A stretch of 64,000 bases of DNA from an uncultured Prevotellaceae bacterium (lineage in GTDB: Bacteria; Bacteroidota; Bacteroidia; Bacteroidales; Bacteroidaceae): the NCBI GenBank assembly GCA_946402905.1, contig CAMIYC010000011.1, forward strand, positions 23,257 to 87,256. The letters are read 5' to 3'. A model generated the notes under the pieces. That model was not told where the DNA came from. It did no database searches and saw nothing but the letters and a program-made list of their open reading frames with translations. This document shows, piece after piece, positions 56,912 to 64,000 of the stretch (the first letter of the stretch is position 1; every line of letters starts with the position of its first letter). The position numbers were made by a program, and so were the translations under genes.

Positions 56912-58960
56912 ATGAAAAAAATCTTATCACAGTTCCTCTTCCTGTTTGCCGTGATGGCGGCTGGTGCTCAGAATCCATATCTGCCTCTCTGGGAACATCT
57001 GCCCGACGGTGAGCCGCGCGTGTTTGAAGACCCCGATCATCCCGGGAAGTTCAGGGCATATATCATCGGTTCGCACGACCTTACTTATACTGCCTATTGT
57101 GGCAACGACGTGCGCATGTGGTCGGCGCCGGTGGAAGACCTGAGCCAGTGGCGCGACGAAGGGCCGCTCTTCACGCATTATGTCGACGGACAGTGGGACA
57201 CCATGTACGCCCCCGACCTGGTAGAGGTCAGGGATAAGTCTACCGGCAAGAAGACCTATTACCTCTATCCTCACTCGCGTGGATGGGGCAGGGTGGCCAT
57301 GGTCTGCAAGGGCGATCGCCCCGACGGACCCTTCACTCCCGTCAATCTCACTCCCGACCGGCGCCGATGCCTGCCAGGGTCGCTCATCGACTTCGACCCC
57401 TCGGTGTTTGTTGAGCAAGTCACTGATCCTAAGGATCCTGATTACAGCCGTGGATACCGGGCTTATGTGTTCTATGGCTTCCAGCATTCCACCGCTTGCG
57501 AGCTGGATCCCGACAATATGTATGCCATGCGACCGGGCACACAGCTCCACGACTATTTCATACCGGCCAGCTCCCGTTACGGTGTGGTGCGCGACCCTGA
57601 AGGCACGCAGTATCCCGCTCTCTACAAGGGACAGAATCCCGGCGACTTCAACTTTTTCGAGGCGTCGTCCATACGTCAGGTGGGCAATAAGTATGTGATG
57701 GTGTTCTCGGGTTATTCCGGACCCGACTACGGACTGGGTTCCACCAACTCCGCGCTGCGATATGCCTATGGCGACTCTCCCTTGGGGCCATGGCGTTCGG
57801 GAGGCGTGCTGGTCGACTCTCGCGGTGTCGTGCTCAATGAGGACGGATCGCATCTCACCACCACCAACGCGGCGCACAACACGCACGGGTCGCTACAGGA
57901 GATCAACGGACAGTGGTATGTCTTCTACCATCGTCCACCCCGCGGCTTCGGCAATGCGAGACAGGCCATGGTGGCTCCGGTCAAGATCGTGTGTGACAAA
58001 AAGCCGGTCGCAGAGGGTGGACAGGTGCGTATCACTGCCTACGACCCTTATGCCAAAAACAACGAATGGACTGCATCCGCAGCCGACGGGATGACCTACA
58101 CCGGTGCGGAGGTCACGTCAGAGGGCTTCCAGATTTTCGGACTTCCACCTTATCAATATTATTCTGCCGGCATCGCCTGCTATTTGTCTGACAACAACTG
58201 GATGCAAGACAATCACGACGTATGGAACAACAGCATGGACCTCGCCGGACTGACCAATCATGGCATCGTGGGGTTCAAATATTTCGGTTTTGGAGGCCTG
58301 ACCAAGGATACTAAGGGCGTGAAAGCCTTTGCGGGTGTCAGGAAGGGCGATGCGCCTATGCTTCATCTACGTCTGACGCCAGGCGGCAAAGGGGCTTTCA
58401 AAATACATGTGATGCTCGACGGCCCCTATGCCAATGAGGTATGGAAAGGTCGGGAGATAGGTGTTATCGAGGTGCCGGAGAATGCACCAGGGGTGGCTTC
58501 CGACTATCAGGTGGCCGTGCCGGCGGTTGAGGGGCTGAAAGGCAAGCATGCCATCTATCTCGTCGTCGAAGGTCCCGAAATAGAGCAACCTCAAAACGAC
58601 CGTCCGCGATTCGGAGGCTTCTCCCGGCAACCGCAGCGGCCACAGGGACTCTTCGATCTCCATGGCATTGGCTTTGCTCGGCAGAGCACAACCTGTGAGT
58701 GGCCGGCCGTTCCCAAAGTGACCATCACCGTCGATGGACAAGAATTGCGCATCCCCACCTCTCCTGTCTATGCCACCAATGCCAATGGATATACCGACTT
58801 GTCTCATTATCAGGTCTACGCACCCCTCTCTTCAAGGTCTCTCATCAAGGCCAGTGCGTCCGATCCTTCTGTCTCTATAGAGGTCAGCCCCATAGTGGCA
58901 GGACGTGCCTCCGTAAAATGCACCTACAGGGGGCAGGACAAGATCTTCTTGGTCAACTGA
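56912..58960 (+). CDS. GH43 family glycoside hydrolase with C-terminal carbohydrate-binding-like region
   Basis: NPYLPLWEHLPDGEPRVFEDPDHPGKFRAYIIGSHD, TMYAPDLVEVRDK, FFEASSIRQVGNKYVMVFS. Confidence 0.87.
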   Translation: MKKILSQFLFLFAVMAAGAQNPYLPLWEHLPDGEPRVFEDPDHPGKFRAYIIGSHDLTYTAYCGNDVRMWSAPVEDLSQWRDEGPLFTHYVDGQWDTMYAPDLVEVRDKSTGKKTYYLYPHSRGWGRVAMVCKGDRPDGPFTPVNLTPDRRRCLPGSLIDFDPSVFVEQVTDPKDPDYSRGYRAYVFYGFQHSTACELDPDNMYAMRPGTQLHDYFIPASSRYGVVRDPEGTQYPALYKGQNPGDFNFFEASSIRQVGNKYVMVFSGYSGPDYGLGSTNSALRYAYGDSPLGPWRSGGVLVDSRGVVLNEDGSHLTTTNAAHNTHGSLQEINGQWYVFYHRPPRGFGNARQAMVAPVKIVCDKKPVAEGGQVRITAYDPYAKNNEWTASAADGMTYTGAEVTSEGFQIFGLPPYQYYSAGIACYLSDNNWMQDNHDVWNNSMDLAGLTNHGIVGFKYFGFGGLTKDTKGVKAFAGVRKGDAPMLHLRLTPGGKGAFKIHVMLDGPYANEVWKGREIGVIEVPENAPGVASDYQVAVPAVEGLKGKHAIYLVVEGPEIEQPQNDRPRFGGFSRQPQRPQGLFDLHGIGFARQSTTCEWPAVPKVTITVDGQELRIPTSPVYATNANGYTDLSHYQVYAPLSSRSLIKASASDPSVSIEVSPIVAGRASVKCTYRGQDKIFLVN

Positions 58961-58991
58961 GCAATAGTGTCATTGCGAAGGACCCAAGGGC

Positions 58992-59761
58992 TTTTTATCA
59001 AGAATTAAAGAATTAAAGAATTCTCCTTACAAGCAACTACTTAGGTAACTACAATTCTTTAATTCTTTAATTCTTGATAAAAAGATATTTGACAGTCTTA
59101 TCACGAATTATAGAATTAAAGAATTCTCTTTACAAGCAATTCCTTAGGTAACTATAATTCTTTAATTCTATAATTCTTGATAAAAAGATATTTGACAGTC
59201 TTATCATGAATTATAGAATTAAAGAATTCTCTTTTCAAGCAGCTACTTAGGTAACTAAAATTCTTAAATTCTATAATTCTTGATAAAAAGATATTTGACA
59301 GTCTTATCAAGAATTATAGAATTAAAGGATTCTCCTTGAGAGCAGCCACTTTAGTAACTACAATTCTTTAATTCTTTAATTCTTGATAAAAAGATATTTG
59401 TCAGTCTTATCAAGAATTATAGAATTATAGAATTCTCTTTACAAGCAACTCTTAGGTAACTAAAATTCTTTAATTCTATAATTCTTGATAAAAGATATTT
59501 GACAGTCTTATCAAGAATTATAGAATTATAGAATTCTCCTTACAAGCAACTACTTAGGTAACTACAATTCTTAAATTCTTTAATTCTTGATAAAAAGATA
59601 TTTGACAGTCTTATCACGAATTATAGAATTAAAGAATTCTCCTTACAAGTATCCACTTAGGTAACTACAATTCTATAATTCTTGATAAAAAGAATTCTCC
59701 TTGAGAGCAGCCACTTTAGTAACTAAAATTCTTAAATTCTATAATTCTTGATAAAAAGATA
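58992..59761. repeat. Tandem array of about 7.5 AT-rich palindromic units, ~103-bp period, between convergent genes
   Basis: gacagtc/gtcagtc loop motif at 59091, 59194, 59297, 59400, 59501, 59604; arms ttatcaagaattatagaattaaagaatt and aattctttaattctataattcttgataa. Confidence 0.92.
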
Positions 59762-59775
59762 ATGAACCCTGCTTA

Positions 59776-61458
59776 TCACCGATACGTAAAGCTGGAGCCT
59801 CCTACGAACTCTCTCATGATGCTTGTGGGAGGAATCTCCTTGTCGCTCACGGGGATGAAATAGTGGATGAACTTCAGCAGACGGTGGGCCTCCGAGTATT
59901 CAGGACAGTTCTTGGGCACCGACGCAAGGATGATTTCGGCGTGTGTGCGCAGAACGGCAAACTCGATGTTGAGCGCAGAGTTGAACATGGCATCGGCATT
60001 CTCCTGGAACGGTAGGATCCATTGCTCCTCGGCTTCACATACGTTGGGCCACATCCTGATGGTCTCTTGCGCCGTGTAGGCTCCCTTGTTGTAGTCGCGG
60101 ATGATGCGACGCAGCAGGCGGTTGTCATGGGTCGGGATCCAGTTGTGGTCGTCGAGTGAAATGCTCGTCAGGGCAGAGACGAAAATCTTGTATTTCAGCG
60201 TGTCGGAGATTTCTTTTGTCAACTCGGGATTCAGGGCGTGGATGCCCTCAATGATTAGCACGCAGTCATTCTGCAACTTGAGCTTCTTGCCGTTGTACTC
60301 ACGTTTGCCGGTCACGAAATTGTATTCCGGCACCTCCACTCGCTCGCCGTTCATCAGTCGTTGCAGGTGGTTCTCAAGCAGGGCGCAGTCTACCGTTTTG
60401 ATGTTGTCGAAGTCATACTGGCCGTTGGGAAGCAGGGGCGTGTCCACACGGTTCACAAAGTAGTCGTCGGTGGAGAAAGAGATGGGGTGAAGGCCGCAGG
60501 CCATCAGCTGTACAGAGAGACGCTTGCAAAACGTCGTCTTACCCGAACTCGACGGACCCGTGATGAGCACGATGCGTATCGGGTCTTTTTCCGCACGGAA
60601 ACGGGCATCGATGTCTTCGGCTATCTTCACGATCTTCTTCTCCTGCAGTGCCTCGCTCACCTGTATCAGTTTGGAGGCCTGGCCGCGCAGCACCGCCTTG
60701 TTCACGTCGCCGGCGTTGGACAGACGCATGATCACATCCCAATGCACCTTCTCGGCAAACATCTCATAGGTCTTGGGCTGGTCGATCTTTTCGGCCAGGC
60801 GCAGCGGGTCTTTCTTGTCGGGAACACGCAGCAGCAGACCGTCGCCGAAGCGCTCCAGCCCCCACACTTTCAGATAGCCCGCAGAAGGCACGAGCGGACC
60901 GTAGTAATAGTCTACCGTGTCACCCAGCATGTAGTAGTCGGTGTAGATCTGTCCGCTGGTCTCCGTCAGTTTCACCTTGTCGCTGAAACCGCGCTCAGAG
61001 AAGATGCGCAGCGCCTCCTCCGTGGTGGCTTCAAAGCGGCGGAAGGGCATGTCGAGGTTGATGATCTGTTGCATACGCTCTTTGATGCGGTCGATGTCGC
61101 TGTCGGTGAAAGCGTCATTGCCGCGTCGCTTCAGGTTGCAGTAGTAGCCGCGAGAGAGCGGGTGCTCGATGAAGAGTTTACTTCCAGGGAATACGTCGCA
61201 AACGGCTTTATAGAGCACAAAGCACAGTGAGCGTACATACACACGGTGCCCGGACCCTTCGCGGGCATCGAGAAATTCCACGTCACGGTTTTGGAAGAGT
61301 CTGAATTTCAAGCCTTGTGAGGCGTTGTTGACTTTTGCTGAGACGACGGGGTAGGGGAGGTGGATATCCTCGGCAAACTCCTGATAGACGTCAAGCAGTG
61401 AGCACCCTTCTGGGAAGCTCTTGGTCACATTGTTGTTCTTGCAGCGGATTTGTAGCAT
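59776..61458 (-). CDS. Uridine kinase-like nucleoside kinase with N-terminal TGS/ThrRS-like domains
   Basis: LITGPSSSGKTTFCKRLSVQL, FSTDDYFVNR, IIEGIHALNPEL; N-terminal HPLSRGYYCNLK-type region. Confidence 0.87.
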   Translation of the reverse strand: MLQIRCKNNNVTKSFPEGCSLLDVYQEFAEDIHLPYPVVSAKVNNASQGLKFRLFQNRDVEFLDAREGSGHRVYVRSLCFVLYKAVCDVFPGSKLFIEHPLSRGYYCNLKRRGNDAFTDSDIDRIKERMQQIINLDMPFRRFEATTEEALRIFSERGFSDKVKLTETSGQIYTDYYMLGDTVDYYYGPLVPSAGYLKVWGLERFGDGLLLRVPDKKDPLRLAEKIDQPKTYEMFAEKVHWDVIMRLSNAGDVNKAVLRGQASKLIQVSEALQEKKIVKIAEDIDARFRAEKDPIRIVLITGPSSSGKTTFCKRLSVQLMACGLHPISFSTDDYFVNRVDTPLLPNGQYDFDNIKTVDCALLENHLQRLMNGERVEVPEYNFVTGKREYNGKKLKLQNDCVLIIEGIHALNPELTKEISDTLKYKIFVSALTSISLDDHNWIPTHDNRLLRRIIRDYNKGAYTAQETIRMWPNVCEAEEQWILPFQENADAMFNSALNIEFAVLRTHAEIILASVPKNCPEYSEAHRLLKFIHYFIPVSDKEIPPTSIMREFVGGSSFTYR

Positions 61459-61479
61459 AATAAGCTTTTTTTGTGTGGG

Positions 61480-61735
61480 CAAAGTTACGAAAAGTCGAGC
61501 GAAAAACCAAACTTGTTTGAGTTTTTCCGAGACGAAGTAACTTCGCCACGAAGTGGCAAAGTTTACGAAAAGTCGAGCGAAAAACCAAACTTGTTTGAGC
61601 TTTTCCGAGACGGAGTAACTTCACCATGTCATGGTAAAGTTACGAAAAGTCGAGAGGAGAACAAAATGAATTTATTCATTTTTTATCCCGAGACGGAGTA
61701 ACTTCGCCACAAAGTGGCAAAGTTACGATAAGTTT
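61480..61735. repeat. Three tandem ~76-84 bp units plus a partial unit of g(c/t)aaagtt(t)acgaaaagtcgag...ccgagacggagtaacttc
   Basis: Unit starts at 61480, 61556, 61634, partial at 61718. Confidence 0.88.
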
Positions 61736-61799
61736 TGTCGATTTCCTAAAAAAGAGCTATCTTTGTCGATTGAAAATGCCAACTTATTTAGAAATATCT

Positions 61800-63714: not shown

Positions 63715-64000
63715 TGCGCTCGGGCGGATTTTGCGCTCGGGCGGATTTGCAATCCGCCCGTATTGAGTATAAGCATTTGCAATGCGCTTGATCGGATTAC
63801 AATGCGTTTGATCGGATTGCAATGCGCTTGATTGGATTGCAATGCGCTTGATCGGATTGCAAATCCTGATATTCAGGGCGTCGGGATTACAAATCCCGAC
63901 GAGCATCACTCAATTTTGCGCTCGGGCGGATTTTGCGCTCGGGCGGATTTGCAATCCGCCCGTATTGAGTATAAGCATTTGCAATGCGCTTGATCGGATT
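63715..64000. repeat. Nested repeat: 84-bp block at 63715-63798 recurs at 63917-64000; four 20-bp units (aatgcgcttgatcggattgc) at 63781-63860; several hairpins
   Basis: Read directly; inverted repeats at 63738-63760 and 63879-63901; array runs off the window edge. Confidence 0.9.

Follow-up and report, generated by a model that had tools for sequence, protein, structure and literature searches.

The closest published case to the array presented here is that of BrickBuilt and MITE464/PgRS in Porphyromonas gingivalis, MITEs with 23- and 41-bp tandem repeats that reach about 10-20 copies per genome, the ends of BrickBuilt being related to IS5-family elements (PMC4596501). A MITE with a tandem core is already known. 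Like the family analysed here, these are intergenic Bacteroidales MITEs combining terminal inverted repeats with an internal tandem array, whereas in our case the 103-bp repeat is composed of a palindromic core plus one element end, as would result from self-insertion, with ends reading TAGRSTGTCC and 9-bp target duplications. A second point of comparison is given by REP, BIME and REPIN sequences (PMC3733652, PMC3116915), which are also high-copy extragenic palindromes located downstream of genes, sometimes clustered, in convergent or unidirectional gaps; our elements differ from them by much longer units, DDE-type target duplications and the lack of a palindrome-flanked RAYT. Among the open papers searched, no publication on the element family of the array was found.

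The window, i.e. the whole 64,000-nucleotide stretch of DNA that was analysed, belongs to a rumen-type species of the Prevotella group, the closest named relatives in a scan of the kinase protein flanking the array being uncultured Prevotellaceae MAGs, mostly rumen-derived. The original prediction of an AT-rich array of ~103-bp palindromic units between two convergent genes was borne out by TRF, by repeat search and by gene positions. To the left lies a 682-aa gene (56912-58960, + strand) without Pfam match, whose product we infer to resemble a GH43-type secreted glycosidase, and the convergent gene (59776-61482, - strand) belongs to the uridine-kinase/phosphoribulokinase family (PF00485). As announced, the array (58991-59760, no strand assigned) nearly fills the 815-bp gap between them (58961-59775), extending from the left subterminal sequence CTTTTTATC to the last AAAAAGATA with a GC content of 24%, the flanks being at about 55% (0.23-0.25 and 0.52-0.60 by region). 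TRF detected a 103-bp period at 58995-59682 (6.7 copies, 90% matches, score 1124) and a further 58-bp register reaching 59740, while the repeat search placed seven direct copies in register, with successive spacings of 103/103/103/103/101/103.

Eight loops were counted instead of the roughly 7.5 units initially proposed, units 7 and 8 being joined by a deletion. All units read on the + strand. Unit 1 (58995-59097), with fully paired arms, comprises a core palindrome (58995-59080) plus linker, and it alone is preceded by CTTTTTATC, a class-A left subterminal sequence (see below). It is followed by unit 2 (59098-59200), whose outer arm TTATCACG is common to unit 7, unit 3 (59201-59303), unit 4 (59304-59406), unit 5 (59407-59507, 101 bp) and unit 6 (59508-59610). 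Unit 7 (59611-59686) lost its right side to the deletion and unit 8 (59687-59760) is devoid of a left arm. The loop CTCCTTGAGAGCAGCCACTTTAGTAACTA of unit 4, common to unit 8, is close to the form frequent in single copies elsewhere in the genome. The highest identities were found between units 1 and 6 (0.97), 2 and 7 (0.96), 4 and 8 (0.95), and 5 and several others (0.96), the remaining pairs being mostly at 0.84-0.96. Inverted arms of 36-40 nt with 86-93% complementarity can pair inside a unit, enclosing a 13-14 nt loop, and also across the linker, enclosing 16-17 nt; the two alternative foldings that had been proposed therefore both exist. The linker itself measures 17-21 nt, its length varying with the point at which the palindrome is taken to end (TTATC...GATAA plus AAAGATATTTGACAGTC). 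Single-strand folding of the array was far more stable than that of shuffled sequences (z = -10.1 as RNA and -11.8 as DNA; 0 of 200 shuffles as good). A CRISPR array was ruled out, since linker and loop both recur in every unit.

A whole-genome search for the unit, as originally suggested, recovered both single copies and arrays, revealing a dispersed family with 184 BLAST matches at dozens of sites on many contigs. When up to 3 mismatches were allowed, the arm motif TTTATCAAGAATTnnAGAATTnnAGAATT yielded 212 matches in the 3.66-Mb genome and none for the reversed control. Sites of the family hold either single copies or arrays, of which there are at least six besides that of the window: an independent array on contig C34 (locus L058), with the same build and a 103-bp period, and further ones on C1, C34 (L057), C42, C105 and C71. 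Many contigs terminate in family sequence; the family breaks assemblies and, in rumen Prevotella, will be a source of confusion when regulatory RNAs are searched for. No match to the family was found in phage and plasmid records, and an origin from either was therefore dropped.

Element structure, taken from about 100 stretches around the matches, revealed that single array-type copies lie inside MITE-like elements of two classes that have the same arms. These elements are short (130-280 bp), non-coding and AT-rich, with high copy number, terminal inverted repeats and a target-site duplication of fixed length, which are traits of MITEs; of the origins initially listed for the array, MITE-like expansion is thus the one supported. 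Class-A elements, about 130-150 bp long, are organised as TAGRSTGTCC(AAT/TTT)...arms, a ~27-nt centre (GTTACCAAAGTGGCTGnTCTCAAGGA), and arms...(ATT/AAA)GGACAGYCTA, and their ends (TAGRSTGTCC/GGACAGYCTA) gave 83 matches against 2 in the control. Seven of 30 candidate end pairs displayed a perfect duplication at 9 bp (TTTTGGTAG, ATTCTGAAG, TTTCGTAAT, AATTGGGAG, TAATCATAA and, twice, ATTCTTTAA), and none did at k = 5-7 or 10-12. A related, arm-less MITE (TAGGGTGTCCTTTTGTTTTCTTACACATCC...) also has class-A ends. Class-B elements have terminal repeats CTGAAGTTTC... and the organisation CTRAA(C/G)TTTCYCACC...arms, with 7-bp target duplications (TTAATAC, TTAACAA, AGACTTA, TTTTTAA), and arms of the same sequence surround a wholly different centre, CGTCGCAAGCGACGGGAATCCC. 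Both classes are also present in other Prevotella genomes, and a hybrid with a class-B left end, a class-A-like right end and an arm core between them was observed at L031:1480-1620 (G009:C1). A ~34-nt insert, AGATTTGTCG(A/T)AGACCCAC...GTAATT, was also observed in about 34 copies at loci L057-L176 of the genome (e.g. L064:2299, L125:473 and L176:2248), always in outer arm octamers and in the same inward orientation in class-A and class-B elements alike; it may represent a mobile cassette or an arm allele spread by gene conversion, and none occurs in the window array.

The window array connects directly to class A. Its linker AAAAAGATATTTGACAGTC is identical to the class-A right end; the first linker, (GAT)AAAAAGATATTTGACAGTC at 59077-59097 (+ strand), corresponds to the class-A right terminal repeat of consensus AAAAAGATATTGGACAGTCTA. 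Since the same sequence, ending in CTA, adjoins unique DNA at four other loci (L085, L142, L147 and L170), the array unit consists of core plus right end. Intact terminal repeats and a target duplication of its own were looked for around the window array and neither was present, its outer terminal repeats having decayed (ends at 58991 and 59760); the array is hence MITE-derived and is not an intact MITE.

The arms consist of repeated octamers GAATTnnA, and class-A targets located outside arms read nTTnnnAAn, a pattern that the octamers supply as ATTCTnnAA, TTnnAGAAT and ATCAAGAAT. Among 88 class-A ends, 29 adjoin an arm octamer, whereas such 9-mers have a background frequency of 0.2%, which was drawn from the genome stretches around matches and makes the fold-enrichment approximate. 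The C34 array (L058) has three nested junctions of the form ...CTA|ATCAAGAATT, which also occur at L074 and L080; the reciprocal junction ATCAAGAAT|TAGRSTG is present at L141 and L166. The window junction CTTATCAAG is one base off the expected CTAATCAAG, and needs one substitution or a microhomology join. Besides class-A elements, a common IS-like tail ending in GGGATTTTATAG starts contigs C112 and C63 (L063:1-55 and L066:1-55) and adjoins the arm at two different positions, which indicates that another insertion sequence also lands in arms.

With a probability of about 0.78, we consider the array to be a transposon-derived satellite, neutral or selfish, tolerated at a safe place. Its starting material would be the class-A MITE-like family, with its 9-bp duplications and its palindromic core of GAATTnnA octamer arms, a step that is well supported. 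The preference for nTTnnnAAn, well supported statistically, would make each octamer a target (ATTCTnnAA or ATCAAGAAT), so that the arms of existing copies would often receive further insertions. As the junctions suggest, the left outer arm of one copy would have received a second copy at ATCAAGAAT, producing a succession of core, right end and ATCAAGAATT core that corresponds to the 103-bp repeat junction. Unequal crossing-over may then have multiplied the core-plus-right-end unit, and the identities among the eight units of this one strain suggest that a block of about five units was duplicated before the deletion that fused units 7 and 8 and the decay of the outermost terminal repeats. The site was presumably tolerated owing to its position between the 3' ends of two genes, where no promoter or reading frame is disrupted. 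No sequence-specific function of the array is needed.

The high copy number of the palindromes and their 3' bias could also be explained by a family of the REP/BIME type that a RAYT (Y1 transposase) mobilises, all the more as the genome contains one Y1_Tnp gene of 270 aa. This RAYT-like gene (L355:1102-1911, - strand; G000:C3) is nevertheless flanked by its own inverted repeats, inverted copies of GGAATCAGAGGGACAGGTTTTTGATTC, and not by palindromes of the array family, whose long terminal inverted repeats and 7- or 9-bp duplications are furthermore unlike those of RAYT-mobilised REPs, making this explanation very improbable. A candidate for mobilisation of class B was found in a Prevotella relative, in the form of a 1,675-bp IS4-family element (L359:1126-2800, G034:C66) bounded by perfect 23-bp ends CTAAAGTTTCCCACCTTTTGAAA and coding for an IS4 family transposase of 500 aa (NF049925, 355 bits). 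These ends match those of class-B MITEs (CTRAACTTTCCCACC), and judging from this sequence match the element is the likely class-B parent; no 7-bp duplication was present in its flanks. It is a likely parent for class B only; the window array carries a class-A end. No class-A transposase was detected with PF00872 or PF01609 in this genome or seven relatives, and we therefore infer class-A mobilisation from ends and duplications. The IS256-type parent (PF00872) was accordingly dropped, as were the PF01609 copies of the genome itself, which have neither class-A nor class-B ends.

A structured RNA had been considered initially; tandem copies of a conserved RNA of this type, or of a riboregulator, would account for the long stable hairpins and for the ~27-nt loop segment recognisable in most copies. 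The proposal that some arm variants co-vary (units 1 and 2) and others do not is correct for the window array. Genome-wide, no significant coupling was found among variable arm positions, none exceeding shuffles: outer arm dinucleotides paired in 12 cases against 9.6 in shuffled data (p = 0.16), and inner ones in 9 against 7.8 (p = 0.30). Given that no Rfam family matches and that identical arms enclose wholly different centres in class B, we regard this RNA as highly implausible, the lack of covariation having largely refuted it.

The position of the family relative to genes is far from random. Gaps with cores were convergent in 18 cases, tandem in 26 and divergent in 1 (n = 45), against 5, 25 and 19 for repeat-free gaps (n = 49), cores being rarer in divergent gaps (Fisher p = 7e-6) and commoner in convergent ones (p = 0.0014), with effect sizes that are approximate as they derive from simple-script gene calls and repeat-chosen sites. 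Within tandem gaps, the median distance separating elements from the stop codon upstream is 45 bp, against 234 bp for the start codon downstream (p = 6e-4). Among relatives, two loci, L247 (MAG RUG12596) and L186 (G009), have kept the gene pair with kinases 90-92% identical. The array is missing from the syntenic gap of these nearest relatives, where a small additional gene is present together with a ~95-bp class-B-type hairpin MITE that immediately follows the stop codon of the kinase; the other relatives examined have mostly unrelated genes downstream.

This strong bias to convergent gaps and upstream stop codons, the folding of the array (z = -10) and the recurrence of a hairpin MITE after the kinase stop in the same gap of two close relatives would fit palindromes acting as 3'-end elements, i.e. 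transcribed hairpins that shield mRNA from exonucleases or insulate convergent genes, arrays of several copies working better and MITEs perhaps coming first and being co-opted later. Purifying selection against promoter or coding hits nevertheless yields an equal bias, as known for REPs, which show the same gene-end placement (PMC3733652), and selection against promoter hits may be the cause of the bias observed here. The variable arm positions are, moreover, uncoupled. The termination element that had been suggested does not hold in its intrinsic form: the terminator scan found no GC-rich stem with U-tract in the array, where the succession of U-run, stem and A-run on both strands is the reverse of what is needed, an A-run and not a U-run following the stem. 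Because no intrinsic termination is indicated and arm dinucleotides pair no better than shuffled ones, the transposon-derived satellite is preferred and a 3'-end function appears unlikely. Sigma-70-like promoter matches in the array (19 vs 4.2 expected) were set aside, since the motif belongs to the repeat itself and Bacteroidetes promoters differ.

Beyond the origin of this satellite, we tentatively propose, at somewhat less than even odds, that the MITE is self-targeting. Its arms would be tandem copies of its own preferred landing site, so that incoming copies land inside older ones at the 3' ends of genes, building bacterial satellites with higher-order structure along with a safe landing zone, and the arm module would be common to other Prevotella species and to two classes that differ in their transposases and are unrelated in their ends. 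Such a process would provide a concrete, sequence-level route from bacterial transposable element to tandem satellite, in which elements carry repeats of their own target site, insert into themselves and are then multiplied through unequal exchange. Genes would also be spared when self-insertion takes place at their 3' ends, which could be why a genome of 3.66 Mb tolerates more than 100 copies.

Other tandem repeats were observed in the window, one of about 78 bp (GGCAAAGTTACGAAAAGTCGAGCGAAAAACC...) at 61475-61749, upstream of the kinase gene, and others of 17 and 20 bp (TGCGCTCGGGCGGATTT and TTGCAATGCGCTTGATCGGA) after an LD-carboxypeptidase gene (63715-63950).
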